Origin: Apoderus coryli
Taxonomy: Eukaryota > Arthropoda > Insecta > Coleoptera > Attelabidae
DNA: 64,000 nucleotides
Assembly: GCA_911728435.2 (NCBI GenBank)
Contig: OU452213.1
Span: 10,907,834-10,971,833 of the forward strand
Direction: 5' to 3'
This document shows, piece after piece, positions 16,201-39,148 of the stretch. How positions within the stretch are numbered: position 1 is the first letter of the stretch; every line of letters starts with the position of its first letter. Position numbers and translations under genes: made by a program. The notes below the pieces were generated by a model. That model saw only the letters and a list, made by a program, of their open reading frames with translations, ran no database searches and was not told where the DNA came from.

Positions 16201-17615
16201 AAAAATATGTTGAACTAGGATACGCAATCTTTTTATCATTTGAAATAGCTCGTTTGGTTGTTTCTTAAGATAATTCGCTAAATTTTTTGCATAGGTACCC
16301 TGTTGAAAATGCCAGATAGAACCATATAAAAAACTAGTTGTTGCCCTCGAGGCACGAATAGCTCTCCATATTGAAGTATAAAAGTAATAATTTTATGACC
16401 TTTTCTCTATTTATTTATTTAATTTATAAATATTTTTTTATTTCAGACATCAGCTATTTTTTTTAAGTATCGGGTTTTGTTCCTTTTTCTTCTCTTTGGA
16501 TATACGTACATATTTTATATTTCAGATCTTTTTAGCCAAATTCTTGTATGCAAAATAGTTGTTTTTTTTTTTTAGTTTTATTATTTTATTTTATCTATCA
16601 AGCTTTTCACGACTGTATGTGTGACCAGTAAAAAGAAATTATTTTTTACTACACCCTTAAATGGATGCCTATGTGTGAAAATCATTAACAGCACATACAA
16701 ATTTTCTGTAGTATATTTGTGTTAAATTTTGCTAAAAATTTTATTTAATATTATTGGATCGTGATTACATATCTCAGCTATTTTTTATACTTTTGAAAGA
16801 CGTCTATGGTACATTAACTTTTTGTCGTGTATTTTTAACCAATTCAACTACTTAAAATGCTAAATATCATTTTTACAGTCCAAATATTTTTTTTATTTTG
16901 ACTTGATTCTACTATTTACGAACGCATATATGTAAACAAGTTTAGTTTTTTTATTCTGCATTTTCATTTTTCATATATCAGAGATATGTAGCCATTTTCT
17001 CTAGTATGTTCGGGAGAGGTATTTTTTTCGTTTATGACCCTTTTTTGTGAACGTCTGTGAACCAATTTTTCTATGTTATTTTTAAGTTATATTCTATTAC
17101 AGCTATGAAAAATCATTCCATATTTCGAATAACTTTAGGAAATATAAGTATATTATAGATATTTATTTATTTTGCTTTTTTTCCAGTACCTATTTTCGAA
17201 CGCAAGTTTTTTTCATAGGTTATATTCTACTCGTATCAACTTTTTTTTTTTCGCTTTTGACGCCTTTTTACACTCTTTTCGAACGCCAATGTGATTAAAT
17301 CTATGAAAAATTATTCAGTATTTCAGATAAGGTTAAGAACTATGAATTTTTTAATTTTTGAACTCTTTTTTGTCCCCTTCGCTACGCTCAATGTTTCCCA
17401 ATCAGCACCTAGAGGTATCCTGTATTGTTTTTGTACCAAATTTGGTTAAAATATGTTAAGTTGTTTTTGAGTTATAGTTGATAGAGATAGACATTTTTTA
17501 AAACTACTTATTTACCTATAAAATGATCAAACATGTATTTCCGGTGAAATTATTAATTTTTTTCATGAAACTAATAGCCGCCATATACATATAATATGAT
17601 ATGGAGAGCTAAAAA
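16200..17615 (+). repeat. GAACGCC-rich repeat with subterminal hairpin, copy 1
   Basis: Shares ordered blocks with 31200-35065: ACCAATTCAACTACTTAAAA, TTTACGAACGC, TTTTCGAACGC, the LINE/Helitron-tail-like ACCAAATTTGGTTAAAAT, then AAAACTACTTATTTA, TATTTCCGGTGAAATT, CATGAAACTAATAG and a closing hairpin CCATATAC...ATATGG followed by AGAGCTAAAA. The end at about 17612 is shared exactly with the second copy at about 35060, which marks a true element terminus. Confidence 0.65.
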
Positions 17616-17774
17616 GATGTACTTTGAAGGGCTTTTGGTTAAAAGAGGGTGCCAGACGTCAACTGAGCCCTTCTTCGCACCCCATTCGATTTTATTATGT
17701 GGAAAAACGAAATTTCAAAGCAAAAACCAAAAGAAAATTGTAGCAATTGTACATATAAAATATGGGTAGAGCCT

Positions 17775-18062
17775 ATCCATATTTTCTTTAGTACTAGTTT
17801 TCTAGCGTATTTTATTAGGGTTGTTAATTTACGACTTTTAATCTAAGAAATATTAAACTTACCGTTATTATGGTTTTGCCGATTTTCGAATGCGTAGCTG
17901 TATAAAAATTTATTACTATCCATATGTTCTTTAGAACTTATTTTCTAGCGTATTTTGTTAGGGTTGTTAATTTACCACTTTTAATCTAGGAAATATTAAA
18001 CTTACCGTTATTATGGTTTCGCCGATTTTCGAATGCGTAGCTGTATAAAAATTTATTACATA
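17775..18062 (+). repeat. Tandem duplication, 143-bp unit
   Basis: TCTAGCGTATTTT begins at 17801 and again at 17944. The two units also share TTAGGGTTGTTAATTTA, AATATTAAACTTACCG and GAATGCGTAGCTG with few differences. Its function is unknown. Confidence 0.9.
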
Positions 18063-18446
18063 TTCTTTGGAAAAATCTAACTCACACACCATGCTGGACT
18101 TGGTTTGGGGTTAGAATTTTACATGTGAATTGCTCTTATACCTATTCTATTGGACATCACAGGATCCGTTTTTGTATTCAGTTTTATGTCATTATTGTAA
18201 TATACCATTTTTTGTTCCTTGAAAAACTTTTCAATTCAAAATATACAAGGCGTGTAAAAAGAAGCTTTTGTTTTAACATTTGAAATAATGCACGCTTAAT
18301 TTGATACATTTTATATTTTACCAAAATTCAACTATATACTAATTTTGAACAAACCTTACACATATTATTGGGAATTGGTTATCTTTAAGAACCCTACAAT
18401 CATAGTTTGATACTGATTATAATACATGTGATAGAGCCCTGCTAAT
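18063..18446. other. Probable 3' flank of the Helentron
   Basis: Lies downstream (minus sense) of the last Helentron stop codon. The element's 3' terminus is expected here or slightly below, but I could not identify a diagnostic end. A T-rich run directly follows the stop codon. Confidence 0.3.
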
Positions 18447-19550
18447 TTATTTTTTTTTTAATAATAGTAAAACTGCGTTATTAAGATTGTTGTTAAAATT
18501 TGTTACATATTCTAAATTATTATCGTTACATATTATCCATCGATTAGTATCTAATCTTAAAGCTGAATAGTAATGGCCGCGCAGAATTGTGCCATCAAAA
18601 CTTTGATGATACACGACAGCACTTAATTCATAATGAAGATTATTTAATATAATATAATCAGGATTAAAATTAGAGAATGTTGTATTAAAAACTTGTAATG
18701 TGTTGTAGTCATATTTTTGTAGAGCCAAAATCACATATTTGTTCGTAGTAACAAAATTCATTCTTGATTGCATGTTATGTAAACACAATTGGCATGTTGC
18801 CTCAGAATTTAAAAAATCGAACATACTGTAGAAATCTAGGTTTTCGGTGTTAGGACAAGCCAAAATTGGAGAATATGATTCTTCAACATTAGAAGTCACC
18901 TCAGTTTCACAAATTTCACATTTTTGAACCATGTTGTATGTACATTTTAGTAAGCTTAAAAATGCTTGGTCTGATTTATTCAAAATTTCTAATAGAAATT
19001 CATGACAGTCTTGTTGCATGTTCTGAACAAAGACTCCTCCTATCAGATTTCTTAATTCCATGCAAGATTTATCTACCCCTGTTAAAATGGTATAGAATAT
19101 TCTATGAAATTCGTTATATTGGTTTCTTATAGAATATCTAAATTCTGGCAAATTTAATAGACATTGCACTATACTGTTTGCATAACATGAAACGCCATCA
19201 CGATTAAATAAACCTTGAGGAGTATGATGATTTAATTCTGTTCCTAGAGTTTTCTTCACACTTTTTTCTTGTGTTTGTATATGAACATCGCATTGTCTAT
19301 CAATACTTTCTTTACTAGTTAAAATGTTCGAATATTTGGTGGAAGTCGTATGTGGCTCTTTTGGATTGACAAGAATATTACTATGGATGATAATTTTATT
19401 TGAAGGTTCAGCAATACCTTTAGATATTTTTGACATATACATGGTGTTATAATTCTTTTTTTGATTTAATATGGATACATATACGGGTTTATGATAACTA
19501 AAATATGATTCATATACTCCACTTGTAAAGTCGTTTGTAGTGTTAGCCAA
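18447..19550 (-). CDS. Helentron C-terminal part: endonuclease end plus ubiquitin-specific protease (C19)
   Basis: A 367-residue frame. Residues 1 to ~28 (SGVYESYFSYHKPVYVSI) are the end of the endonuclease domain (S-x-H-x-P block) begun in the upstream frame, and its ATG is internal, so it is probably not an independent start. Residues ~115-366 form a peptidase C19 domain: Cys box GLFNRDGVSCYANS with catalytic Cys122; QQDCHEFL (QDxxEFL box); two Cys pairs CEIC and CQLC, as in the zinc ribbon of USP fingers; His box GHYYSAL with His326; and CNDNNLEYV with Asn342/Asp343 as third-residue candidates. Such enzymes remove ubiquitin from proteins. At ~250 residues it is a compact USP. All catalytic boxes are present, suggesting selection. 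A role in protecting the transposase from degradation is only a guess. Confidence 0.8.
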   Translation of the reverse strand: MANTTNDFTSGVYESYFSYHKPVYVSILNQKKNYNTMYMSKISKGIAEPSNKIIIHSNILVNPKEPHTTSTKYSNILTSKESIDRQCDVHIQTQEKSVKKTLGTELNHHTPQGLFNRDGVSCYANSIVQCLLNLPEFRYSIRNQYNEFHRIFYTILTGVDKSCMELRNLIGGVFVQNMQQDCHEFLLEILNKSDQAFLSLLKCTYNMVQKCEICETEVTSNVEESYSPILACPNTENLDFYSMFDFLNSEATCQLCLHNMQSRMNFVTTNKYVILALQKYDYNTLQVFNTTFSNFNPDYIILNNLHYELSAVVYHQSFDGTILRGHYYSALRLDTNRWIICNDNNLEYVTNFNNNLNNAVLLLLKKK

Positions 19551-19708
19551 TATTATATCAATTTGTGTATTTGAATCGGTGGTAACAATATTGGGCTTTA
19601 ATAATGAAATAAGCTTATATTTCTTTAAATCCTCACATAACGTATTTTTAGATTCTTGTAAATTAATATTAAAATCTCCGATTACAACAAGTTTTCCATT
19701 AATATCTT

Positions 19709-22700
19709 TTAATATATTATGTAAAAGCTGATGAAAATAGATTGTGGTGTTTTTGGTGTTTTATAACCCGTAACAATGTAATATTCATCACATAGTCGCA
19801 TAACTATAAGTTCAATGCTATAATTAAGACCAAACTCAACATTTCGAGAAATCAATTTAATATCCGATTTGAAATTTGATTTCCTGTAAATACACATTCC
19901 GCGAGTATTATTTGCTGGATTAGTTTTAATCAATATATCGAAATTTGGAATATCTACCTGTTCTTCAGATTTAGTTAGTGTTTCAGAAAAAATTAATATG
20001 TCGCTATCTGTGTACCAAGTATCACTCAAAATATATTTTAATTTAGTTTTTAAAGAATTCAAATTGTGATACACTAAAGTTACTCTTGAGTTGGAATAAT
20101 CAGGTATGTTGTAACAAAACTGTATTACACGATTTTCTTTTAAATAATTCATTTCATTGACTGCATAATTTTGCGTTTTAGAATTCCTAACATTGGAAAA
20201 ACTACCTAAAATATATAAACCAGATAAGTTAGTTACCCTACTTAGCGCAACATACAATAAAGAACGAGTAAATCTTTTGCATTTTCGAAAGTCTATGCAT
20301 ATTTCTGTGTAAGTTTGACCTTGACTTTTGTGTATTGTTAAAGCTTCAGCTGGTGTTAATGGAAATTGCTCTCTCCGTGTCTCACATTGCAATTTCCTTG
20401 TTATATTTAATGTGACTGTTAATTTTGAAATAGGTGTTAATTCTGAATCAACAGCATTAGCTCGAGCTGTCGCAGCACAATCTAGTCTTGATCTATTTCC
20501 AATGTTTTTGTTCCCAAAATCTAACCATAAACGTTTTATGTCTGATTTATTTGACTTAAATTCAATGAATTTTAAAGTCCCAACTGCACCATTTACAAGC
20601 CCATCTCCGACATCGATATTGCTCGTGATCATGTATTTGATTCCTATTTTGACTGTTAGTAAGTATGGTAGACCATTGGTATCAGATTTCTTTTTATATT
20701 TCAATGAATTTATTACAGATTCACGCGTCTCATTTGAAACTTTACCAAGAATGTAATCATTGGCTATAGATTCGTACAAAGTACCCGGGTATTCTGTGAT
20801 TTTATAATTATTATACGAATCTACATTAAGATTATCCGTAAACAAACGTATAGCCCTATCAGGTACATCATTTTCACTCACTTGTCTTTGCTGAAACAAT
20901 TTAATATCTTGATCTGTTAATTTGTTTATTGCTAAATTATTTAAAGCCATTGCGAATTGTAAGTCCCCTTGCTGTCTCATGATTTGCTTTAATTCGTATA
21001 CCGAAAATAACTCCCATAAAGGATTACGATCAATAATGTCTATTAGTTGGTGTTTTTTTGGAACCTTGTAAACTGGTGTATCTAAGACAGGTGGTAACTG
21101 GTTAAAGTCTCCAACAACTAGAACTGATATTCCTCCAAAAGCGGTATTTACGCCGAAAATTTGTCTAAGACGACAATCTACACGATGCATCAATGTAGAG
21201 CCTACCATAGATATCTCATCAATTATTAAGAGTCTAATATCAAAAAGCTTTTGCCGAATAGTATTAGCTATATCTGAACTTAATTCAGGCATATCTCCAC
21301 CAAATTCTGTAACGGGTAACGAGAATGCAGTATGTAAAGTCATCCCACTTACATTGAACGCTGCTTTACCTGAAGGCGCACAAATTAAAACAAACATTTT
21401 GTCATCATTGCCTCCAGGCACATTTGATAAATATTTTGTCACTAACTGAAAAACTGCACCAATAACTTTACTTTTTCCCACCCCAGCAGATCCACTTAAA
21501 AAAATATGAAATGGACTCTTGTTAGTTTTAAACCAGTGCAAAATGTGCATAACAATTTGTTTTTGTTCAGTATTGAGTAACTGCATTAGAATACCAATTT
21601 CTTCTTCTGATATCCTTTGAGGAGTTGTATAAGAAATATGTTTTGTGTTTTCGGTCTTCTTATTGGGCATGGTAGTTGCAATATCGACTTGCATGCCAGA
21701 TAAAACGGGAGAAATATCACGGATTTGTTGAGTCATATCCTGTTCAGATTCGACATCACAAAGAACCTGTTCAAAAATGTCGTCTTCGATGACACAGTAT
21801 TTTTTTCGGTTGTTCTCTATAATTTCCTTATTTCTTACATATTGTGCCAATTTGTTAATATTTTCGAGTTCTGCGAATTCATTTCGCCAAGGTAAAAATA
21901 ACATTAATTGTTCCCGAAAATAATTTTCCTGATCGTCATCTAATTTATACCTCACATATCTGATGATAGCAGTCTTCTTTCGCACATTTAAAGTGTCCGG
22001 ATCTAAATCTAAATTTTCTGTATTGGATGGACCTCTTTGTCTTGTATGGTTTGCAATAAAATCAGCTAAACACATATTTTCTAAGCTTAAAGATCGTTTC
22101 ATATATTTATTTATATCATTTTCTAAAAAAATACTCGTTGAATTTGTATCCAATTTATTAAGTTCGTTTCTTGATTTCATTATTTTTATACGAGTTTCTG
22201 TTGGAGATGTGTTTATAAAAATGACTTTTCGACTACTGCATGATAAAGGTAGTGACAGTACATGATATGCAGCTTCCTGTGCTGACATTAAGTTGCTGTT
22301 TAAAAAAGTATTAGTAACATTTTTTAGTTGTTCCTTTAATGTTGTGTTTCCGTTTTTAGAATCTTTTACGGCATCTCGCAGAAGCTTAGATAATCCACTG
22401 TCTACTTTACTGATGTAATTAATTATATAATTTGCTAAACCATATTCTTCTAAAATATATTGAAAATCAATATTAGATTCAAATAGATTCAAAATAATTT
22501 TGTTGTAGCTGTTTATAGAGACTTCTTTGCTACTTCTTTTTAAAAATACTTGCGGTCTTTTTAAACTACTTCTCAGAGCCAAGATATAATCATTCTCGTT
22601 CATATTAAGTTTTTGTAAGACATTATTGAATGAAATCTCCTCAGAAGTTTTGATAAATTTAGTCATTAATTCTTTAATTTTTTGAAAGTTCGAATCGTGC

Positions 22701-25678
22701 TGTTTTATGTCACTAGTGTCTGTTGAAAATGGCGCTAAAATCATTGTACGTGGCATCATGGGCAAAGGAAAATTAAACCTGCAATGTCTTTTACCTTTCT
22801 TTTTGTAGCATGTGTGACTATGTCTATGAGTCATATATGGCATATACGGATTGTTTGAATCATATTCACAAGTTATAAATTCGTCAATTAAAGAAATACA
22901 TTCCTTATTGCTATCAATACTATGGCTATGAAATAAAGGAGCACCTGACACCCAGAGAAATATATGAGCATGTGGAGAACCTCTTAGTTGAAACTCAACC
23001 CTTATATAATAATCATCTAAGGTACGTGACCTAAAAATACCGTTAGGTTTCCTTAAAAATTTTATTAAATTTTGCATTTTCCGATCAAAATAGCGTGCAC
23101 AAGTTATGGGGTCATTCTTGATTAATTCAGTTTTAATATCATAACTCAACTCATATGCAGCTTTAATTGATATTATTTTATTATATTTGAGTTTATATAA
23201 AAATTTTATTAATTCAGGCCATTGCAATTCTGCAGCTGACAGTGTTAAAAAAAATGTTGGTTTGCCCAATTGTCTAATCATAGCCATTAAGTCCTTTTTC
23301 TTTTTCTCCCAATAAGATGGAGAAGATCTTATTTGCCCTAACATTTTAAAAGCATTATCACTTTTAATAAGATTGTCTAAAAAGTCCTTTTTTAATACTT
23401 GATAAGCAGTCAGATTACTTTGTTTTTGTTTTCTTAAACACACGTTTATATTAGAAAAACAACTTAATTCCAATTTACGTTTTGCCATATATAACACACG
23501 GTTGGGAACGCAGGCTCTACGATCCCATCGACGAGCTTGAGAAAGGAATTTCTGGTGAATACTTAGTTTTGGTGTTGTGTCATTGAACTTGTGGCCCGCA
23601 TAAATTTTAGGGAAAGAAAGTTCATCAAGATCCTCAATCTCGGTGTAATTCATAGGTTTTTTATATTGACCTGGAGCCAGAATTTGAATTTGATCCCGCA
23701 CTAATTCGGAATTTCTGTCTATTACCATTACTTCTTCATCAACTTCTTCCTCATGTACATCTGCCTGATCAAGCACTAAATCAGGTTCTTTACTAAAATC
23801 TTGGTCTAAACACATATTGCCGTCAACGATGAAATCAATTTCATACGCTACATCTAGTCCATCGTAACGATCAAAAAAGTTTTTGTCAATTTCAATTTTA
23901 TATTGTTTATATAAAGGTGTCGTTAATAAATATTTAAGAGCTTTACATATTAAGACAGGTCGTATTGTTTCAAACATATAAAAAGATTTATGGGTTATAT
24001 GTCTTTTAAGCATTAACTGTATAGTACTCATATCATTGAAATTCCTTGGTAATACTTGAAGAAACTCATTGGTTTCAACAGGAATATTAATAATACTTCC
24101 TTTCATGCCAAGTTGTGGATTTATTGCGTATGATTTTAGAGGTCTTATTTGCATGAAAGGTATGTATGGCGAAACGACGCGTTCCTCTAATGGAGAAAGA
24201 TTGTTTAAACAGTCAGGAATATGAACAAATTTTAAATTATTACTTGTCGCCAAAATCGGTACCTTTCGCTTTAAAGCATATGTTTTGCACGTCTTACAAA
24301 TATAAGTCGTGGATTCGTAGTTATTAATTTTTAAATATAAATTTAAACTAATATTTTCAAGCAAACCGACATTGGATACTACCGAATGTTCGAAAAATAT
24401 ACCTTCACAACAACAACAAATTTTATCACATAAATCATTACGTGAATTTATAAATTCACGTTGGTATATTGAAAAATTTGTAGTTAAAACCTGTAACTCT
24501 GTTAAATAATTTTCCCTATATTTAAAAAAATCAATATTCCTTTTATCAGTTTTAGCTTGTAAATCGCTTTTTTGTTCTTTTAGTTTATATTCTTGGGTAG
24601 ACCTTTTGTCTCTTTTAGTACCCTTGTCCTTTTGTCTCTCTATTTCTCTGAATTTTTCATCCAGTCTTTTATCTCGTTTGGTTTCCTTATCTTTTTGCCT
24701 TTCTATTTCTTTAAATTCCTTATCTATTCTTTTATCTCGTTTTGCATCTTTATTTTTTTGCTTTTCTATTTCTCTAAATTCAATATCTACCCTTTTAACT
24801 TGTTTCAATTCTTTATCCTTTTGCCTCTCTATTTCTCTAAATTCAGCCTCTCCTCTTTTATCTTGTTTTGTTTTCTTGTCCTTTCCTCTTTCTATTTCTC
24901 TAAATTGTTCATCAATTCTTTTATCTCGTTTTGCATCTTTATTTTTTTGCTTTTCTATTTCTCTAAATTCAATATCTACCCTTTTAACTTGTTTCAATTC
25001 TTTATCTTTTTGCCTCTCTATTTCTCTAAATTCAGCCTCTCCTCTTTTATCTTGTTTTGTTTTCTTGTCCTTTCCTCTTTCTAGTTCTCTAAATTGTTCA
25101 TCAATTCTTTTATCTCGTATTGCATCTTTATTTTTTTGCTTTTCTATTTCTCTAAATTCAATATCTACCCTTTTAACTTGTTTCAATTCTTTATCCTTTT
25201 GCCTCTCTATTTCTCTAAATTCAGCCTCTCCTCTTTTATCTTGTTTTGTTTTCTTGTCCTTTCCTCTTTCTATTTCTCTAAATTGTTCATCAATTCTTTT
25301 ATCTCGTTTTGCATCTTTATTTTTTTGCTTTTCTATTTCTCTAAATTCAATATCTACCCTTTTAACTTGTTTCAATTCTTTATCTTTTTGCCTTTCTATT
25401 TCTCTAAATTTTTCATCAATTCTTTTATCTCGTTTTATTTCTTTATCTTTTTGTTTCTCTATTTCCCTAAATTCCTCATTGAACCTTTTCAGTCTTTTCG
25501 TTTCTACATCCTGTTGTTTTTCCAAGTTACGGTATTCCTCTTCATGTCTTTTTTTCTTTTTTGATTCAACATCTTTTATTTTTTCGATTTCTCTAAACTC
25601 ATTATTTTGCCTTTTTGTTTCAATATAGTTTTTCTTTCGCTGATTTTCGAGCTTTTTTGATTTTCGTTTCACTCGCAT
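19709..25678 (-). CDS. Helentron Rep/helicase protein with N-terminal coiled-coil repeats
   Basis: 1989 residues. Residues ~1-375 are K/E/R/D-rich 21-residue repeats. Residues ~410-640 hold Cys pairs (ICCCC; CKTC) and a DUF6570-like region (VPILATSNNLKF). Residues ~700-960 are Helitron-like N and Rep: the HUH motif is RGSPHAHIFLW, with His903 and His905. The two-tyrosine motif ANYIINYISK has Tyr1084 and Tyr1088, the residues that cut and join DNA in rolling-circle transposition. The helicase has Walker A GSAGVGKS at 1396-1403, Walker B LLIIDEIS with Asp1487/Glu1488, VVGDFNQLPPV near 1525, HKSQGQT near 1783 and ALSRVTNLSGLYILG near 1817, typical of Pif1. From ~1862 an AP-type endonuclease starts (YHNLNSLKTKL, DILIFSETLT) but is cut off by a frameshift at the end. 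Its continuation, with KLVVIGDFNINL, lies in the next frame at about 19710-19560. The start is the first ATG of the frame. Confidence 0.9.
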   Translation of the reverse strand: MRVKRKSKKLENQRKKNYIETKRQNNEFREIEKIKDVESKKKKRHEEEYRNLEKQQDVETKRLKRFNEEFREIEKQKDKEIKRDKRIDEKFREIERQKDKELKQVKRVDIEFREIEKQKNKDAKRDKRIDEQFREIERGKDKKTKQDKRGEAEFREIERQKDKELKQVKRVDIEFREIEKQKNKDAIRDKRIDEQFRELERGKDKKTKQDKRGEAEFREIERQKDKELKQVKRVDIEFREIEKQKNKDAKRDKRIDEQFREIERGKDKKTKQDKRGEAEFREIERQKDKELKQVKRVDIEFREIEKQKNKDAKRDKRIDKEFKEIERQKDKETKRDKRLDEKFREIERQKDKGTKRDKRSTQEYKLKEQKSDLQAKTDKRNIDFFKYRENYLTELQVLTTNFSIYQREFINSRNDLCDKICCCCEGIFFEHSVVSNVGLLENISLNLYLKINNYESTTYICKTCKTYALKRKVPILATSNNLKFVHIPDCLNNLSPLEERVVSPYIPFMQIRPLKSYAINPQLGMKGSIINIPVETNEFLQVLPRNFNDMSTIQLMLKRHITHKSFYMFETIRPVLICKALKYLLTTPLYKQYKIEIDKNFFDRYDGLDVAYEIDFIVDGNMCLDQDFSKEPDLVLDQADVHEEEVDEEVMVIDRNSELVRDQIQILAPGQYKKPMNYTEIEDLDELSFPKIYAGHKFNDTTPKLSIHQKFLSQARRWDRRACVPNRVLYMAKRKLELSCFSNINVCLRKQKQSNLTAYQVLKKDFLDNLIKSDNAFKMLGQIRSSPSYWEKKKKDLMAMIRQLGKPTFFLTLSAAELQWPELIKFLYKLKYNKIISIKAAYELSYDIKTELIKNDPITCARYFDRKMQNLIKFLRKPNGIFRSRTLDDYYIRVEFQLRGSPHAHIFLWVSGAPLFHSHSIDSNKECISLIDEFITCEYDSNNPYMPYMTHRHSHTCYKKKGKRHCRFNFPLPMMPRTMILAPFSTDTSDIKQHDSNFQKIKELMTKFIKTSEEISFNNVLQKLNMNENDYILALRSSLKRPQVFLKRSSKEVSINSYNKIILNLFESNIDFQYILEEYGLANYIINYISKVDSGLSKLLRDAVKDSKNGNTTLKEQLKNVTNTFLNSNLMSAQEAAYHVLSLPLSCSSRKVIFINTSPTETRIKIMKSRNELNKLDTNSTSIFLENDINKYMKRSLSLENMCLADFIANHTRQRGPSNTENLDLDPDTLNVRKKTAIIRYVRYKLDDDQENYFREQLMLFLPWRNEFAELENINKLAQYVRNKEIIENNRKKYCVIEDDIFEQVLCDVESEQDMTQQIRDISPVLSGMQVDIATTMPNKKTENTKHISYTTPQRISEEEIGILMQLLNTEQKQIVMHILHWFKTNKSPFHIFLSGSAGVGKSKVIGAVFQLVTKYLSNVPGGNDDKMFVLICAPSGKAAFNVSGMTLHTAFSLPVTEFGGDMPELSSDIANTIRQKLFDIRLLIIDEISMVGSTLMHRVDCRLRQIFGVNTAFGGISVLVVGDFNQLPPVLDTPVYKVPKKHQLIDIIDRNPLWELFSVYELKQIMRQQGDLQFAMALNNLAINKLTDQDIKLFQQRQVSENDVPDRAIRLFTDNLNVDSYNNYKITEYPGTLYESIANDYILGKVSNETRESVINSLKYKKKSDTNGLPYLLTVKIGIKYMITSNIDVGDGLVNGAVGTLKFIEFKSNKSDIKRLWLDFGNKNIGNRSRLDCAATARANAVDSELTPISKLTVTLNITRKLQCETRREQFPLTPAEALTIHKSQGQTYTEICIDFRKCKRFTRSLLYVALSRVTNLSGLYILGSFSNVRNSKTQNYAVNEMNYLKENRVIQFCYNIPDYSNSRVTLVYHNLNSLKTKLKYILSDTWYTDSDILIFSETLTKSEEQVDIPNFDILIKTNPANNTRGMCIYRKSNFKSDIKLISRNVEFGLNYSIELIVMRLCDEYYIVTGYKTPKTPQSIFISFYIIY
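24560..25600 (-). repeat. In-frame 63-bp repeats (189-bp higher order) in the Helentron coiled coil
   Basis: The protein repeats a 21-residue unit beginning REIE(R/K)(Q/G)K(D/N)K about 15 times. In the middle, three unit types alternate (ending RIDEQF, RGEAEF, RVDIEF) to give a 63-residue, 189-bp period; for example, TAAATTGTTCATCAATTC recurs at about 24901, 25090 and 25279. Units of three heptads suggest a long charged helix or coiled coil. Near-identical DNA copies imply recent expansion. Confidence 0.88.
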
Positions 25679-26575
25679 AGTAGAATATAAAATTTAAACA
25701 AAAAATATGCACCCTTTTTCCTTAATTATAGGAATGAATTATATTAAATTTTGATGTGTATGCTCGTGGTTCAGTATATGCTCGTGGTTCAAAGTTTACA
25801 AAAAAAAAATATATATATATTTCATCAATTCTATTCTAATAAACGAAGCACGAAAATCCGAATGTCAAATTTGACCAATGCGAATGCACTAATAAAAGCT
25901 AATGGAAGTATACGATTGTATATCGAATGAAGTGAATTGAAGACAACAAAAACCTTCAGGTTATACAGTGTTCATTTAACACTTTAACAATATCGTCTTC
26001 TTTAAAAGGTACAGTATGGTATGTAGGTAAAGTTAAAGTATTGTCTTTATAAAGACAATGGTTTAATTATACATGCGACATAAAATGACACGTACCTGTT
26101 AAAGCATGGATTTAATTGCAGTGAAGAAACTGGATGGATGTTCTCATGCAATAGGTAGGTACTAGATGCACAAAAATTTTGCCAGGATAAGTATAATCTA
26201 CAATTCTAGAATAGAAATTCGTATTATAGCCATAATATTATTAACTATTATTATTAATCATATATGAACTTACACAAAAAATAGATATTATTAGACAAAA
26301 TCTCAATATTATATTATTTTAAATTTTTTGTAATCTAAGTTTTAAATTTTGAATGTTTCACATATAATATTCTACAAAACCGCCAAACCTATTGACAATT
26401 TATTTAATGTCAATGGGCGCCTTGAAAACATTAACATATTAATATAATGGACCAAGTAAAAAGTACATGAATTGATTCACGAGTGAGATAGCACAAAATA
26501 GGATATTTTGTATATGATAGAAGAGGACAGAGATAATGTGGGCAAAAAAGCGCGTTTTAGGTTTCGACAACCAAA
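25679..26575. other. Helentron 5' flank; no gene seen
   Basis: AT-rich. It contains a 20-bp perfect palindrome at 26040-26059 and otherwise nothing I can support. The 5' terminus of the Helentron should lie in this interval. Confidence 0.4.
26040..26059. repeat. Perfect 20-bp palindrome ATTGTCTTTATAAAGACAAT
   Basis: Self-complementary over all 20 bases. Its half TTATAAAGACAATG recurs near 42580 and 44250, so it may be the centre or end of a dispersed repeat. No TSD or longer arms are visible. Confidence 0.85.
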
Positions 26576-26582
26576 TAATCAG

Positions 26583-26640
26583 CTCAGTGGTAAGAACACG
26601 CGCTTACGCTTTGCATGCCGAAAATCTTGCTCTTCTAAAT
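26583..26640 (+). tRNA. tRNA-Ala-like relic (SINE or pseudogene)
   Basis: Contains an A-box-like AGCTCAGTGGTAAGAACA and GCTTTGCATGCCG, similar to the D arm and anticodon arm of tRNA-Ala, but no believable T arm or acceptor stem. A T-run follows. It is not a functional tRNA gene. Confidence 0.35.
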
Positions 26641-27347
26641 TTTTTAATTCTAATTAATAAAATATTAAGTTGATTTATTTTTGACGAAAACACGCGAAGC
26701 CTCGAATTTCTGCTCTGGCTAAACGCTTGTTACGCGTTCAGACGGTCAATTCTTGATAACCGGGAGTAGAATGATCCAGCTAAGCTAGGCACAGCCTACT
26801 AAATTAGCACAGCATTACCGCCATTTTCTCGGTTGATCGACACAACAATTTTCAAGAATAGACCTCCTGGACAATGATGTAGCCGCTTTTCTGCTCATTT
26901 TGAGTATTGTTTTTTTTTTATATAAAAAAATAAAAGTGAGGTGAATTTTAGGTGATCCTGTCATATCAGTCCATCTGATATGAGTTTGTAGAAGGATAAC
27001 GTCTAATATCAGAAAATATTTTGAGAATAATAGGGAGGTTTTGAAATTCTTAATTATTTTCACGTAATTAGCGTGCACGTTAATACTAAGTATGCGCACA
27101 ATGATACACGTGAATGACGCAATAACGTCAAAAAAGCGAATTTTGAGTATCGTTGCATACTTTGACTAGTTCCTATTAAAAGGTTTTATAAGTTACCATT
27201 AGAATTTGCTGTTTAACATTTCTGCATGGGGAGAGCAAATTTGTGAGCTTCGGACATGGGCTTAAGGCTATGCATACTACGTCAGTAAGGGAGTTCATAA
27301 TATATTATGAGGTATGAGATATGATTAATTCGCATAATGCGTTTGAT

Positions 27348-27415
27348 ACGGCTGTAGCTTAGTGGTAGAGTGTCTGCTTTGCGTGCGGAAGGTCCTGAAT
27401 CCGTTCACCATCTTG
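27348..27415 (+). tRNA. tRNA-Ala(TGC)-like relic (SINE head or pseudogene)
   Basis: TAGCTTAGTGGTAGAGTG gives a good D arm/A box. TCTGC-TTTGCGT-GCGGA gives a 5-bp anticodon stem (one G-T pair) and a 7-base loop reading TGC. A degraded B-box (GAATCCGTTCACC) follows at the right place, then a T-run like a pol III terminator. The acceptor ends do not pair, so it is a pseudogene or a tRNA-derived SINE head. Confidence 0.5.
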
Positions 27416-27419
27416 CAAT

Positions 27420-28470
27420 TTTTTACTTTTTTCTATTTTTGAGTAAAGTAGTTACGTAGTTGGTTAGTTTAGGAAGTTATTATTACTATTATTTTCAAAG
27501 ATGTAATTATTATATATTTGATATTATTTTATTTCTCTTTCTATTGTGCACAATAATGCGCATGTCTGAAGCTCGTTAATTTGGTCTCACCCAAGGTGCA
27601 TTAACTATATAGGTTACTGCATTGAGCTGTTTTCGGGTGAGGGGTTCGCGTGGGTGTCGTGACGTCAGCGGCGACCGGAGTTCTGTCGTTTATTGTTTTT
27701 GAGGTGGGCGTTTTCGTTGCGATAATGTTGTGAGCTGTTACTCAAAGAATTTTATACTTCCTCGAATAAGAGTTTAGATATTTTGGTGTTTTTGTGAATA
27801 TTATTATTATATTATGATTTGTTTAAAGTTGTGTGAGCATTTTTTTAACAAACTCGTTTTGACCTTATTACCTATATTATGTATCATCTTTTTATAAAGT
27901 CCAATATCATACTACTTAGTACAAACTACTACGTTTTTTTACAAAGGACAATGCATAATACTAGGTACAAAAATGCTACAGGACATATTTTTACGGAGAT
28001 ATAAAACGAAAACACCCTTGTGACACTAGGATATGTAATGCAAAATTTTAATAAAATATCTAACTATTTTTAATATAATAACTTTTTACAATATTATTTT
28101 TTAAGGCATCAAAAATACAATATATTTTTTCGATGAGAACGTTTGGAAATGTATTCAGCAAAACAAAAAATTGACAAAGTTTGTAACTTCCTAAACATAA
28201 ATTTAAAATTATGGTAATAACTTAGAACTTGAATATATTGCATTTTTATAACACTAATGTTTTAACTTTGGAAATAGAAATTGTTAATTTACAATATTTA
28301 ACTAAAAGCACACAGAAAAGAGATCCATAAGGCCCATAGATAAATGTTTATAACTGTAAATAATGCCGTTATAAAGCAAGCGGGTCGCCGATGACGTAGA
28401 TTGCTTGTGGTAGGTCAAGATCAATCAACTTATTTAGTTAATGCGCCTTGGGTCTCACCTACAAGTCTGT
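27420..28470. other. No recognisable feature
   Basis: AT-rich sequence without open frames. A short GC-richer patch (about 27630-27700, with GTGACGTCAGCGG) stands out but has no assignable role. Confidence 0.4.
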
Positions 28471-28476
28471 TTCATT

Positions 28477-31034
28477 GACGTTATAATACTAACGTATGGA
28501 CGGAGCATATTGTATACAGTATCGCAAAGCCAGACGGTGAAAAATGGTAACTAAGATACTGCTATTTAATTTCGTTGTGTTAGACAAGGAGAGATAGATT
28601 ATGGCCAAAATCATGTGATCAAAACATTTTTTCATCCTTTGAAATAACACACCTAATCAGCTGATTAAGAGAGCGACTATCTCTCTTGCGTCACCGCTAT
28701 ACCTCTCTCGACACTATCCATTCGTTAGTATTATTAGATCTCTGGTCTGTTTAACAACATAACCTTACTTTTCCGTTGTTTATTTTCTAGTTTCAAGATA
28801 GAATAAATAATAATAATAAATAAATTAAATAATGCAAAACCAGAGACCGTCTCTAGGAAAACCAATAAACAACACTATCAAACAAATCCCGCGCAAAAAT
28901 AAAACTGAGTAGGTATTATCTATGCATCGATGTATGTATGTCAGTAGTTTAAATTTTCTCGCAATGACAATATTTCCGATATGCTGGTACACATTTGTTA
29001 CGCGAATAACAGAGATCTTATGCTTATATTATTTTATTTATCTGTATTAATAGTTTTTGTACATAAAATTTGTAGATAAATAAAACTGTATAGTTTTGGG
29101 GTAAAAGATATTCATTGTTGAGTTATATTTAAGACATGTAGGTCTGCAGAATAGAATAATTAAATTGGTTAATTGGTGTTTTCATTTATTATCTTTGCGT
29201 AAAGATATTACACTACTGACACAAGTAAAGACGATTTACATTACAGATCCTAGGAGAGCATAGACATAATTCAAATAATTAAGTGGTTTATTGAAAATTT
29301 AGTATAGGGTACGTTATTACATATTTAATGTTTTTATTTGGATATTGAAAAATATAATCATGATACGAGTTTATACCGTACCGAAGTGGTATAAATGGTG
29401 ATCATAGTACAATAACAACCTATATAGGTATTCAGGAAGCTTAAAATTAATTGTAATTTCGACACTTAGGTACCTATTTAAAAATAAATCAGCCTTTTTC
29501 TGTTCCAACCACCTATCATTTCTGTACCGAAATAAAACCGTGCCAGATCAACGCATGCGCCTGCAATCGATCCTAACAGTTTCACGACGATACGAAAACC
29601 GGGGGATGGAACGAACCTACTAACGAATGGATAAAGTGTCGTGAGAGATATAGGAGTGACGCAAGAGAGATAGTCGCTCCCTGAATCAGCTGATTAATTA
29701 ATAATATTATAATAATAAATAATAATTAATTCGTTAGTATTATTAAATCAATCATTGGGGGCGAGACGAATGACTAGTATCTACAGGCGTACACGATGTT
29801 TTTCGATGTATCGAATATTTATATCGATATTTTAAACTAGTGTTTTACATCGATTATTTGCAACCTGATGTTTCGTTACACTGGGAAAAAAGTTGAAGTC
29901 AGTTTAATATCTGATACACGTGAAATTTTTTATAAATTGGTACATTTCTCGCAGTTATTGTGTATCTCAAGGACCTTTTTTTAAGATATTTTCACATAGC
30001 GAAAAGCGATAGTGTCAGGGGTCCTGTGTGGGAACAAACCTTTTTAACATGGTGTTGACAGGAATCTACACTATGTCGCGGATGCGTAATGAAATCGGTT
30101 CCAGCTTTGTCGCTTCTTTGTGGTGTTTCTTCTCGCTTCTCGGGTCGAGAGAGATATAACGGGGACGCAAGAGAGATAGTCCTTCTCTTAATCAGCAGAT
30201 ATGTGTATGTTATTTCAAAAGATGAAAGAATATTTTGATCACATGATTTTGACCAAAATCTCTCTCTCTCACCCTGTCTAACACAACGAAATTAAATAGC
30301 GGTATCATCGAATATTAGGGAGTTAAGGCAAAGCCAGTGGCGTATACGTAAACGTATCTTTTGACATCTACGCATGCGCTCTTTAAATTTATGATACGTT
30401 TAACGATACGAAGGCCGTAAACATATGTACCTCTACGCGTATCGTATACTTAAACGTATTGAACCGATTGTTGTCGGAATTACATGAACTTGTACGAATA
30501 TCTAGAATAGAACATTAAAAACTCAATCTAAATTGAAAATTAAGCTAAACTATTTTGCAATAAATACTTTATTATTATTATTAGTAATAGTAGTTTATTT
30601 TGTAACAATTATAAACATTTTTCTGTTATTCTTCATAGGTATACATAATAAAATATATAGGTATTTGGTTAATAATTAAAAAAACAATAATATTAACAAC
30701 ATAGTAAATGGAAGTAGAAAAATCTAAAATAGTCTTTTTCTAGTAGTAGTAGTTTATATAGTAAAGTGTTATCTCTACCTTCCGCATATACGATACGTAT
30801 TGGATGGCACCTTAACTCTATTTTGAATGACTGCTTATCTAGTGTAAACATAACCAAAATCTCACGTTTACGTATGGAGATACGTATACGTCCTTGGTTT
30901 TGCCTTAACTCCCTATTAACTATAGACTATTATTTTAACTGTGGCGGTATCTTACCACGTACCATTTTTCACCATCTGGCTTTGCGATACTGTATACAAT
31001 AACCTCCGTGCATACGTTAGTATTATAAGGGCAA
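28477..31034. mobile_element. Non-autonomous element with long terminal inverted repeats, internally disrupted
   Basis: The left end (GTTATAATACTAACGTATG, then GTATACAGTATCGCAAAGCC and GGTGAAAAATGG) is matched in inverse at the right end (CATACGTTAGTATTATAA preceded by CAGTATCGCAAAGCCAGA in complement). Matching continues through TTTAATTTCGTTGTGTTAGA and TGATCAAAA...CATC, giving arms of about 290 bp. The right arm is interrupted by a second element (30315-30920). A block around CGACTATCTCTCTTGCGTCA occurs three times: left arm about 28665-28745, inverted at about 29612-29695, and inverted at about 30140-30200. No transposase is encoded. Confidence 0.7.
30311..30920. mobile_element. Nested non-autonomous element with TIR GGGAGTTAAGGCAAA
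   Basis: The left end GGGAGTTAAGGCAAAGCCA and the right end GGTTTTGCCTTAACTCCC are inverted copies, followed internally by CGTATACG-rich arms on both sides. TATTA flanks both ends and is a candidate target duplication (TA or TATTA). It lies within the right arm of the larger element, so it inserted later. No coding capacity was seen. Confidence 0.7.
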
Positions 31035-31199
31035 CGATTATATAGCTGATAAGAAAAGGGTTATTGTCAGAAGCGGATAGGGTCCGCTGGTCTAGAATTA
31101 TTCCCGACGGCGAAAGATTGCAAACGAAGCCTGATCAACACAAACGGTCAAACAAATATGCAGAAAAATCAAAGGCCGACTATTTTCAAGCTAGCAACT

Positions 31200-34100
31200 T
31201 GTACGATTAACACCAATTCAACTACTTAAAATGCTAAATATATTATTTTTACAGTCCAAATAATTTTTTATTTTGACCCTTTTTTCTACTATTTACGAAC
31301 GCTCATGTAAACAAGTTTTTTCCTGCATTCTGTTGAATATATCAGAGATATATATAATGAGGAAATTTTTTGTTACGTTTGAGGAATATTTTTGCCTCGT
31401 TTTGACCCCATTTTATTTTCTGCGAACGCCGGTGTGAACTGATTTTGGTACTTTTTTAGGTAATACTGTATCTCAGCTATGAAAAATTATTCCTGATTTC
31501 GAATAAGTTTAGGAATTATCTTTTTTTGTTTCATTTTTAACTTCGTTTTTAAATCTCTTGTCTACGTTCAATGTTTTTCCAGAGTTAATCAGCACCTAGA
31601 AATATCATGTACCTAGTACTTTTATATCAAATTTGGTTAAAATCAGTTTCACTTATCGTGGATACAGATTTTCAGACCCTTTTTTAGACTTTTCACGCAC
31701 GCCTATGATTCATTCATTTTTTCGTGTATTTTTAACACTAATTCAACAACATAAAATGCTAAATATATTATTTTATATGGCCCTTTTTTGGACTTTTCAC
31801 GGACATCTATGATACTACAATGTTTGTCGTGTATTATTTTTAACACCAATTCACTTAAAAAGCTAATTAAATATATCATTTTTAGAGTATACCTACATAG
31901 TTTTTTATTTTAACCCCTTTTCTACTATTTATGAACGCCTATGTAAACAATCAAAGCAATATATAATTAGCCAATTTTTCTGATACCTATATCTGGGAAA
32001 CATTTTTTATTTTCGTTTTTGACCCTTTTTACACTATTTTCGAACGCCTGTCTGAACCTATTCATTTATGTAACATTTGTTAGGTTATATTATATCACAC
32101 TTATAAAAAATTATTCCGTATTTCGAATAAGTTTAGGAAGTATATATTTTTTATTTTGACCCCTTTTACACTATTTACGAACGCCTATGAAAACAAGTTA
32201 TTTATATCACATTTTATAGGTTATATTATATCAAAGCTCTAAATAACTAGTCAATATTTCTGCTATGTTTAAGAAATACATTTTTTCTAACCTTTTTACC
32301 CCATTTTACACTTTTTTCGAATGTCAATGTGGTCTATTTTTTATGTTAAATAATTTAGATTATATTTAATTAAACGCACAAAAAATTATTCAATATTTCG
32401 GAGAAGTTTAAGAACTATGATTTTTTTAATTTTTGAACCCTCTTTTAAACTCCTTGCTTACCCTCAATGCTAATCACCACCTATAAATATCCTGTAGTAT
32501 TTCCGTACCAAATGTGGTTAAAATCCGTTAGGGGGTTTTTGAGTTATCACGGATACAAATTTTTTCTGACCCTTTCATAGAATTTTCACGGACGCCTATG
32601 GTACATTAATTTTTGTCGTGTGTTTTTAACACCAATTCAACTAGTTAAATATACATTACATTTTAAATATTTTTTTTATTTTACCCCCTTTTCTACGATT
32701 TGCGAACGCCTATGTAAATGCAAATTTTATGCTGCATTTCGTAGGTTATCTTATATCAAAGCTATATATAATTAGCCAATTTTTCTGGTATATTTGGGAA
32801 ACATTTTTTTTCGTTTTTTGCCCTTTTTTGAGACTATTTTCGAACGCCTGTGTGTACCAATTCTTTTATGGAATATTGTTAAGCTTATATTGTATCACAA
32901 CTATGAAAAATTATGCCATATTTCTAATAAGTTTAAAAAGTATATATTTTTGTTTTTTTTTGACCCCTTTTACACTATTTACGAACGCCTATGAAAGTAA
33001 GTTTTTTATGACACATTTTATAGGTTAGATTCTATCAAAGCTATAAATAACTAGTCAATATTTCTGATATGTTTAAGAAATATGATTTTTTTAATTTTTG
33101 GACCCTCTTTAAAACCCCTCCTTACGTTCAAGGTTAACCACCACCTATAAATAACCTGTAGTATTTCCGTACCAAATGTGGTTAAAATCCGTTAAGTGGT
33201 TTTTGAGTTATCACGGATACAATTTTTTTCTGACCCTTTTATAGAATTTTCACGGACGCCTATGGTACATTAATTTTTGTCGTGTATTTTTAACACCAAT
33301 TCAACTAGTTAAATATACATTACATTTAGAATTTGTTTTTTATTTTACCCCCTTTTCTACTATTTGCGAACGCCTATGTAAATATAGATTTTATGCTGCA
33401 TTTTGTAGGTTATCTTATATCAAAGCTATATATAATTAGCCAATTTTTCTGGTATATTTGGGAAAACATTTTTTTTCGTTTTTGGCCCTTTTTTTAAACT
33501 ATTTTCGAACGCCTGTGTGTACCAATTCTTTTATGGAATATTTTTTAGCTTATATTGTATCACAATTATGAAAAATTATGCCAGATTTCGAATAAGTTTA
33601 AGAAATATATATTTTTTATGTTTTGACCCTTTTTCCACTATTTACGAACGCCTGTGAAAGTTATCTATGACACATTTTATAGGTTATATTCTATCAAAGT
33701 TATAAATAACTAGTTAATATTTTTGCTATGTTTAAGAAATACGTTTTTTTTAAATATTTTTTACCCCATTTTACACTATTTTCGAACGCCAATGTGCTCT
33801 AATATTTTATGTTCAATATTTTAGGTTATATTCAATTAAATGTGTAAAAAATTATGCAGTATTTCGGATAAGTTTAAGAACTATGAATTTTTTTAATTTT
33901 TTGAACCTTCTTTTATTCCCCTTGCCTACGCTCAATGTTAATCACCACCTATAAATATCCTGTAGTATTTTCGTACCAAATATAATTAAAATCCGTTAAG
34001 TGGCTTTTGAGTTATCACGGATACAAGTTTTTTCTGGCCCTTCTATAGAATTTTGACGGACGCCTATGGTACATTAATTTTTGTGGTGTATTTTTAACAC

Positions 34101-34851
34101 CAATTCAACTAGTTAATTAAATATAAAAAAATTTACATTTTAATTATTTTTTTTATTTTACCCTATTTTCTACTATTTACGAACGCCTATGTAAATAAAA
34201 ATTTTATGTTGCATTTTGTAGGTTATCTTATATTAAAGCTATATATAATTAGCCAATTTTTCTGGTATATTTGGGAAACGTTTTTTTTTTCTCGTTTTTG
34301 ACCCTTTTTTTAAACTATTTTCGAACGCCTGTGTGAACCAATTCTTTTATCGAATATTTTTTAGCTTATATTGTATCACAACTATGAAAAATTATTCCAT
34401 ATTTCGAATAAGTTTAGGAAATATATATTTTTTATGTTTTGACCCCTTTTCCACTATTTACGAACGCCTATGAAAGTAAGTTATTCATGACACATTTTAT
34501 AGGTTATATTCTATCAAAACTATAAATAACTAGTTAATATTTTTGCTATGTTTAAGAAATACATTTTTTTTAATCTTTTTTACCCCATTTTACACTATTT
34601 TCGAACGCCAATGTGCTCTAATATTTTATGTTCAATATTTTAGGTTATATTCAATTAAATGCGTAACAAATTATGCAGTATTTTGGATAAGTTTAAGAAC
34701 TATGAATTTTTTTAATTTTTAAACCCTCTTTTAAACCCTTTGCCTACGCTCAATGTTTCCCAAAATCTAATCAGCTCCTTGCCATGTCCAATAGTATTTT
34801 TGTACCAAATTTGGTTAAAATCTGTTAAGCGGTTTTTGCGTTTTCGTGGAT

Positions 34852-34886
<35 letters not shown>

Positions 34887-34887
34887 T

Positions 34888-34926
<39 letters not shown>

Positions 34927-35065
34927 TTTTTTTAAAACTACTTATTTATGTATAAAATGACCAAAAACAAGTATTTCCGGTGAAATTAAAAAAATTTTTT
35001 TTTTCATGAAACTAATAGTCTCCATATATACATATATTACATATATGATATGGAGAGCTAAAAAT
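31200..35065 (+). repeat. GAACGCC-rich repeat with higher-order tandem structure, copy 2
   Basis: Around 17 GAACGCC-type motifs are spaced about 140 bp apart in groups (e.g. 32703, 32842, 32982; 33367, 33507, 33648, 33786; 34181, 34325, 34464, 34601). Groups of up to four subrepeats alternate between ATTTACGAACGCCTATG and ATTTTCGAACGCCTGTG forms. They are separated by a ~250-bp segment with TACCAAATGTGGTTAAAAT and GTGTATTTTTAACACCAATT, giving a unit of about 770-815 bp. One group lacks its fourth subrepeat (interval 664). The 3' end carries a CAGA microsatellite, TATTTCCGGTGAAATT and a hairpin TCTCCATAT...ATATGGAGA, then GCTAAAA, as in the copy at 16.2-17.6 kb. Confidence 0.8.
34851..34926 (+). 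repeat. (CAGA)n microsatellite
   Basis: About 19 CAGA units with one CATA variant, located between the TTGGTTAAAATCTGTTAAGC block and the conserved 3' terminal block of the element. Confidence 0.95.
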
Positions 35066-35079
35066 TTAATATGGATTAA

Positions 35080-38000: not shown

Positions 38001-39148
38001 AATCCAAATGCAAAAGCTATTGGGATTCATTTGTATTTATCAGATTCTATCAGGATTGCCCAATAGAACCTGTTTACATTTAGAACGGATTTAATATGGT
38101 TTTATAAGCAAATCCAAATGCAAAAGCTATTGGGATTAATTTGTAGTTATCAGTTTCTATCAGGATTGCCCAATAGAACCTGTTTACATTTAGAACGGAT
38201 TTAATATGGTTTTATAAGCAAATCCAAATGCAAAAGCTATTGGGATAAATTTGTAGTTATCAGATTCAATCAGGATTGCCCACTAGAACGGATTTAATAT
38301 GGTTTTATAAGCAAATCCAAATGCAAAAGCTATTGGGATTAATTTGTAGTTATCAGTTTCTATCAGGATTGCCCAATAGAACCTGTTTACATTTAGAACG
38401 GATTTAATATGGTTTTATAAGCAAATCCAAATGCAAAAGCTATTGGGATAAATTTGTAGTTATCAGATTCAATCAGGATTGCCCACTAGAACGGATTTAA
38501 TATGGTTTTATAAGCAAATCCAAATGCAAAAGCTATTGGGATTAATTTGTAGTTATCAGTTTCTATCAGGATTGCCCAATAGAACCTGTTTACATTTAGA
38601 ACGGATTTAATATGGTTTTATAAGCAAATCCAAATGCAAAAGCTATTGGGATTCATTTGTATTTATCAGATTCTATCAGGATTGCCCAATAGAACCTGTT
38701 TACATTTAGAACGGATTTAATATGGTTTTATAAGCAAATCCAAATGCAAAAGCTATTGGGATTAATTTGTAGTTATCAGTTTCTATCAGGATTGCCCAAT
38801 AGAACCTGTTTACATTTAGAACGGATTTAATATGGTTTTATAAGCAAATCCAAATGCAAAAGCTATTGGGATAAATTTGTAGTTATCAGATTCAATCAGG
38901 ATTGCCCACTAGAACGGATTTAATATGGTTTTATAAGCAAATCCAAATGCAAAAGCTATTGGGATTAATTTGTAGTTATCAGTTTCTATCAGGATTGCCC
39001 AATAGAACCTGTTTACATTTAGAACGGATTTAATATGGTTTTATAAGCAAATCCAAATGCAAAAGCTATTGGGATTAATTTGTAGTTATCAGATTCAATC
39101 AGGATTGCCCACTAGAACCTGTTTAAATCTAGAACGGATTTAAATGTA
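35080..39148 (+). repeat. Satellite array, 110-bp unit, about 37 copies
   Basis: AGAACGGATT recurs at 35291, 35401, 35511 and so on, every 110 bp. Each unit contains TTAATATGGTTTTATAAGC, AAATCCAAATGCAAAAGC and AGGATTGCCCAATAGAACC. The first ~15 units are almost identical. From about 37200 three unit types alternate, including an 88-bp type lacking the CCTGTTTACATTTAGAACGG part and a type reading GGGATTCATTTGTATTTATC. Half-degenerate units mark both edges. The array starts within ~20 bp of the end of the preceding repeat element. Confidence 0.97.

Follow-up and report, generated by a model that had tools for sequence, protein, structure and literature searches.

What is a ubiquitin-specific protease (USP, peptidase family C19) doing at the end of a rolling-circle transposon? 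The question is raised by a Helentron of the beetle Apoderus coryli, which lies in a 64,000-nucleotide stretch of contig OU452213.1 (positions 10,907,834 to 10,971,833 of the forward strand; hereafter the window). We consider it likely that this element encodes a single protein, made up of a Rep domain (HUH motif and two Tyr), a Pif1 helicase, an AP-type endonuclease and a USP, in which the USP would serve as a deubiquitinase that aids transposition. This reading draws on what we observe: the anatomy of the element and its terminal repeats, an intact open reading frame (ORF) of 2473 amino acids (aa) in a sister copy, recent spread, constraint on the USP and the recurrence of such domains in other Helentrons.

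Domain architecture

The window copy has an ORF of 1989 aa that contains the HUH motif (His903/His905), the two-Tyr motif (Tyr1084/Tyr1088) and the Walker A lysine of Pif1. The HUH, two-Tyr and helicase boxes line up with those of 11 other Helentron proteins, with a gap in P0073 at the two-Tyr box. The endonuclease is split over two frames, with SETLT in the 1989-aa ORF and GDFN, TQID and SYHKP in a second frame; the frameshift lies within the endonuclease and parts the Rep-helicase from the endonuclease tail and the USP. All four boxes can be aligned with Helentron relatives, which places an AP-type endonuclease downstream of the helicase. Because no Pfam endonuclease model matched this family's protein (P0121) at E ≤ 0.01, the assignment rests on the alignment. 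The SDH motif of such endonucleases has Asp in the middle; the window endonuclease and several relatives have Tyr at that position.

The second frame is open for 437 codons (19760-18450), the longest in 2000 base shuffles being 149, and it carries the C19 domain along with the endonuclease tail. The Pfam UCH profile matches its protein with 56.1 bits, where the cut-off is 23.9 (E 5.6e-15), the Cys, His and Asn/Asp boxes are all found, and a USP fold is predicted. Profile, boxes and predicted fold all fit membership of the domain in peptidase family C19. Two other identities were rejected, as neither OTU (PF02338) nor the VTD deubiquitinase domain (Herpes_teg_N, PF04843) matched the window proteins or P0121 at E ≤ 0.01. 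A sequence-only reading of the window had listed the HUH, two-Tyr, Pif1, endonuclease and C19 residues and had put the peptidase in the frame of the endonuclease tail; every one of them lies exactly where it was placed.

Copies in the source genome

We searched the source genome (428 Mb, 129 contigs) for copies of the element. Besides the window copy it holds two near-full copies, A (contig C21, ~1.94 Mb) and B (contig C25), and two older, fragmented ones on contig C1, C (~20.09 Mb) and E (~26.81 Mb). Bounds were taken as the ends of similarity between copies, with an uncertainty of a few bases in the flanking T runs (A runs on the plus strand). The element thus extends over about 16328-35064 and not, as had been proposed, over 18447-25678. 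The window, A and B are near-identical at three different places and have therefore spread recently. In the blocks of at least 100 bp shown, copies C and E share 92-98% identity with the window, apart from one block of C at 89%.

In copy A an uninterrupted 2473-aa ORF starts at Met, closes with the USP and has the order DUF6570, Helitron_like_N, PIF1 and UCH. The proposed fusion of endonuclease and USP therefore stands within a single ORF in copy A; in the window copy, which is frameshifted inside the endonuclease, the endonuclease tail shares its frame with the USP. All five copies examined have the endonuclease-USP arrangement and carry the USP, which rules out a one-copy artefact; judged against A as the reference, four of them retain every catalytic residue and zinc cysteine. 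We found no near-full copy without the USP.

Sequence constraint on the USP

A, the window copy and B show no difference in USP or Rep-helicase core across the compared codons, and these copies are accordingly recent. The older copies allowed us to estimate the ratio of non-synonymous to synonymous divergence (dN/dS); indels were set aside and stop codons dropped (the USP has none). For the USP the ratio was 0.18 between A and C (4 synonymous and 3 non-synonymous changes), 0.24 between A and E (6 and 6) and 0.21 between C and E (8 and 7). By half-sums, the synonymous changes number 9 and the non-synonymous ones 8 (Fisher p 0.0019, one-sided). The Rep-helicase gave 0.29-0.45, and the endonuclease with its linker 0.99, 0.90 and 0.73 (p 0.49, with 158 of the 279 codons represented in copy C). 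Since C and E include time spent as dead copies, dead time would have raised these values and not lowered them. The USP thus appears to be under constraint at the sequence level. The expectation of a dN/dS below 1 was borne out; the accompanying claim of selection, drawn from the intact catalytic boxes, agrees with the low ratios and with four of the five copies.

USP-like C-termini in other Helentrons

Residues 430-1989 of the Rep-helicase ORF, used as query, brought up 800 protein matches, 120 of which were listed and examined. Pfam recognised OTU in 27 of these, Herpes_teg_N (VTD) in 15, Ulp1 in five and UCH in three. The three UCH carriers, A0A8D9E244 of Cacopsylla melanoneura (P0009) and two PIF1-like proteins of Folsomia candida (P0073 and P0076), resemble the element's protein in having DUF6570, Helitron_like_N and PIF1 followed by a C-terminal UCH. 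The Rep-helicase of P0009 is 44% identical to that of the window, and those of Folsomia 33-35% identical over 53-61% of the query.

A USP profile built from P0121, P0009, P0073 and P0076 added one protein each from Planococcus citri, Parthenolecanium corni and Brassicogethes aeneus, so that a USP-like C-terminus is found in six of the 120 relatives (one from C. melanoneura, two from F. candida and these three), plus this family's own. The added proteins score 38.5 (P0067), 38.3 (P0049) and 32.0 bits (P0062); the match in P0062 spans only 61 residues, and Pfam UCH was not reported at E ≤ 1 in any of the three. The next score, 9.7 bits for P0035, was not accepted. The best of 121 reversed proteins reached 10.7 bits (E 0.002) and the best of 605 shuffled proteins 5.2, so scores around 10.7 bits carry no meaning. 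When each of the seven USPs in turn was left out of the profile, it scored 27.9 to 115.7 bits. As sole query the window USP found P0073 at 17.0 and P0076 at 9.5 bits, against at most 6.3 for reversed and 6.2 for shuffled proteins. Three of the six relatives (P0009, P0073 and P0067) have both a complete Cys box and a complete His box. The endonuclease boxes are lost in P0062, and the last of them differs in P0012. Two protein-database searches with the USP part gave no match, as they needed exact shared 5-mers and missed relatives found otherwise; one scan of viral contigs gave no match either.

Origin of the USP

The sequence-only reading had proposed that the element gained its USP from a host gene. 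A recent capture from this host was rejected on a search in which, among the best 96 of 109 candidates in the source genome, none of the host's USPs gave a match to the USP query at E ≤ 0.001. Apart from the element's own copies, the search returned one 35% match to the endonuclease part (C1:29863421, query residues 16-98); as only the best candidates were scored, this is not proof of absence. The genome has many USP exons, with 58 UCH matches, four of them from copies of this element. The nearest sequences found are instead USPs of other Helentrons, from a psyllid (48.2 bits), a scale insect (39.4) and the pollen beetle (36.6), compared with 29.1 bits for the best solved USP, USP47; the mealybug Helentron USP is about level with the latter (27.6).

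These likenesses bear on whether all Helentron USPs go back to one ancient capture, followed by transfer through recombination or by many losses, which we regard as unlikely, although several points favour it. No solved USP comes as close to the window USP as do the Helentron USPs of psyllid, scale insect and beetle, the psyllid USP has the window's as its nearest (45.9 bits, against 33.9 for the best solved USP, USP15), and the window, beetle and scale-insect forms have in common the active-site stretch DGVSCYAN or KGVSCYAN. The springtail USP, however, is nearest USP12/46, with 39.8 bits to USP12 as opposed to 28.5 to the closest Helentron USP from any other species. The USP carriers also fall in five places, both in a FastTree tree of 121 proteins (judged by eye) and in an IQ-TREE tree of 40 proteins (five changes); on the latter, P0001 was labelled OTU by eye and P0003 ULP from a sub-threshold Ulp1 match. 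A single clade of carriers was rejected on the Rep-helicase tree (p-AU 3.7e-59), and a clade of the window and psyllid proteins was not (p-AU 0.098); both approximately unbiased (AU) tests used 24 rows and LG+G4, a simpler model, and were run after the first tree was seen. The rejection of one clade speaks against plain descent and not against exchange. Taken together, the sequences suggest that USPs were captured two or more times, possibly with exchange between elements, and they are too divergent to settle the matter. We infer that the USP was acquired before this family spread in this genome, and that Helentrons as a whole gained USPs more than once or passed them between elements.

Proposed role of the USP

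According to the reading that we favour, copying and insertion of the element through rolling-circle transfer would be the work of the Rep-helicase. The USP on the same polypeptide would deubiquitinate either the transposition protein or host proteins present where the element inserts. The complex could thereby escape proteasomal turnover or host repair and silencing. Because it is fused to the Rep-helicase, the USP would have its effect either in cis or at the site on the DNA.

Several observations weigh against this deubiquitinase role. Of the five copies, only A keeps the whole ORF. The window copy carries a frameshift, in copy B 474 bp are absent from the middle and the long frame is split in two, and C and E survive as fragments. 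The catalytic His is gone from copy E. The final 300 residues of the P0076, P0049 and P0062 models are without a His box, so that the models are incomplete or contain decayed domains. The counts behind the dN/dS values are small, and two of the compared copies are broken. Lastly, some proteins with a USP fold (USP39, USPL1 and USP18) are not known to be active on ubiquitin.

The domain might instead be a processing peptidase that cuts a polyprotein into Rep-helicase, endonuclease and protease, with no deubiquitinase function. The polypeptide is very long, its endonuclease-plus-linker part evolves fast, and processing is among the roles proposed for Helentron OTU domains in passages of PMC4067079. 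Against self-processing stands the USP fold itself, with the His-aromatic pair typical of Gly-Gly-directed peptidases, and we judge it improbable and weaker than a deubiquitinase role. Still less probable is a functionless passenger, that is, a captured host fragment. Helitrons do capture genes (PMC5148889, in the portion consulted), and in the sequence at hand the His box is absent from half of the six relatives and from old copy E. The low dN/dS, an active site preserved in four of the five copies and the in-frame fusion argue against a passenger, as do the USP-like C-termini in Helentrons of other hexapods, three of them with complete boxes. That the USP is a separate host gene adjoining the element by chance, as its different frame from the Rep-helicase in the window might suggest, is refuted by the single ORF of copy A and by its place inside the shared element in all five copies.

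The deubiquitinase role is open to experiment. The USP fold is compact and well understood, probes and inhibitors for it exist, and this genome holds a copy with an intact ORF.

Ends and other features of the element

Coordinates are collected in Table 1. A search of the window for the 12-bp subterminal inverted repeat (subTIR), tolerating at most one mismatch, gave three matches, all exact, where shuffled sequences average 0.16. The third is internal (17599-17610) and ends a stretch, 17175-17616, that is present in A, B and E and absent from old copy C; this may be a small non-autonomous insertion or reflect a deletion in C. The 5' hairpin is strong when 34990-35066 is folded (z −4.19; none of 200 shuffles folds equally well). 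T runs, variable in length, flank five copies at the 3' end and four at the 5' end. Passages of Thomas et al. (2014; PMC4067079) give as Helentron features subTIRs no shorter than 11 bp, a palindrome close to the 3' end and T-rich insertion without target duplication. The element has a Rep with HUH, two Tyr and a superfamily 1 (SF1)/Pif1 helicase, a fused endonuclease, subTIRs and a weak 3' palindrome.

Table 1. Positions of the element and its parts, numbered from the first letter of the window.
Feature	Position	Strand	Remarks
Whole Helentron, ~18.7 kb	16328-35064	minus	similarity among window, copy A and copy B; unlike flanks
5' subTIR AGCTCTCCATAT, 12 bp	35048-35059	minus	~5 bp from 5' end, inside hairpin
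3' subTIR AGCTCTCCATAT, 12 bp	16360-16371	plus (as read)	~32 bp from 3' terminus
3' palindrome TGCC...GGCA	16342-16354	minus	weak: z −0.50; 58 of 200 shuffles fold equally well
Two tandem 143-bp units	17773-18059	not assigned	3' of coding region
5' part of element	25694-35000	not assigned	common to copies
Rep-helicase ORF, 1989 aa	25678-19709	minus	N-terminal charged repeats, DUF6570, Helitron_like_N, PIF1, first part of AP-type endonuclease
189-bp (3 x 63) in-frame tandem repeat	24627-25473	minus	codes charged repeats
Helitron_like_N (Rep domain) match	22958-23557	minus	genome profile search
Endonuclease tail, second frame	19482-19760	minus	GDFN: Asp 19674-19676, Asn 19668-19670; SYHKP: His 19491-19493
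C19/USP domain	18450-19226	minus	Pfam UCH profile, residue boxes, predicted fold
USP catalytic Cys	19185-19187	minus	
USP Gln	19011-19013	minus	
USP zinc Cys pairs	18909-18920 and 18783-18794	minus	
USP catalytic His	18573-18575	minus	
USP gatekeeper Tyr	18570-18572	minus	aromatic adjoining His
USP Asn/Asp	18522-18527	minus	

Copies A and B hold one unit of the 189-bp repeat more than the window copy, and the charged N-terminal region changes length in frame. Four of the 30 open frames of at least 55 aa in the 5' part (25681-35149) were scanned and gave no convincing domain (best E 0.018, which falls short of the cut-off), nor did the one open frame scanned 3' of the USP. Satellite-like arrays with units of ~110 bp and 182 bp occupy 35148-39143 and 44561-47292 of the window, the former starting 84 bp past the element's 5' end.

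The same genome holds a second Helentron family (contig C10, ~2.45 Mb; L039:4068-9743), with an 1891-aa ORF that has Rep, helicase and, by eye, endonuclease, stops soon after the latter and contains no peptidase domain. Nine more Helitron_like_N matches, not aligned, score the same or nearly the same as this family. There is also a large Helitron family of another type, with an 885-aa ORF at L041:1039-3696. Many of the 133 Helitron_like_N matches in the genome are near-equal in score, which is a likeness of score and not a measured identity.

Comparison with known systems

Other peptidases occur at the same position. When domain order was checked in four relatives, OTU (P0035) and Ulp1 (P0006) followed the endonuclease, P0033 had a C-terminal Ulp1 with no recognised endonuclease before it, and P0003 had an N-terminal VTD (31-182) at 22.3 bits, just below the Pfam cut-off; the Ulp1 matches of P0006 and P0033 are over theirs. 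Of 15 tails inspected, ten in which Pfam recognised no C-terminal peptidase were scanned, giving OTU in three (P0025 over the cut-off), Ulp1 in five (all below it) and neither in two; the P0001 tail had no Pfam match at E ≤ 1. The sub-cut-off matches of Ulp1/C48 type are in P0017, P0022, P0026, P0027 and P0003, the last in addition to its VTD. Judged by these domain matches, the C-terminal position is exchangeable, with an OTU or Ulp1-type peptidase there in other Helentrons. More broadly, the C-terminus could be a swap slot, behind the endonuclease, for at least three unrelated classes of ubiquitin or ubiquitin-like peptidase (OTU, Ulp1/C48 and USP/C19), with USPs captured at least twice from cellular genes and each class defeating a ubiquitin-based host restriction of rolling-circle transposition in animals; we put this forward tentatively and lean slightly against it.

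In the titles and abstract openings searched, which leave out most subscription journals, we found no report of a USP in a Helitron or Helentron, and none of Ulp1 in Helentrons. As far as searched, the USP-class variant is therefore unreported. The domain has its fold, its Cys-His-Asn/Asp residues and its zinc Cys pairs in common with cellular USPs (USP14, USP12/46, USP2 and USP21), from which it differs in its size of ~260 aa, its 16-24% identity in the matches listed and its fusion to a transposase.

Helentrons with OTU, RPA and SET domains are reported in parts of Thomas et al. (2014; PMC4067079). Those with an OTU-like cysteine protease, as described there, resemble this element in the Rep-helicase-endonuclease, subTIRs, a ubiquitin-related cysteine protease and perhaps T-rich insertion; the peptidase here is C19/USP and not OTU, and the OTU of P0035 sits after the endonuclease like the USP. 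Zebrafish Helentrons with VTD likewise carry a deubiquitinase, whose activity is reported in the sections of Erven et al. (2022; PMC9741609) consulted; VTD and OTU, and not USP, are the Helitron deubiquitinases named in them, and the authors suggest that VTD may prevent degradation of proteins needed for transposition. VTD is another deubiquitinase class, N-terminal in P0003 where the USP here is C-terminal. The USP would thus add to the OTU and VTD already described in Helentrons a further unrelated deubiquitinase class, fused to the transposition protein and apparently constrained, and for this reason ubiquitin removal may be a recurring need of these transposons.
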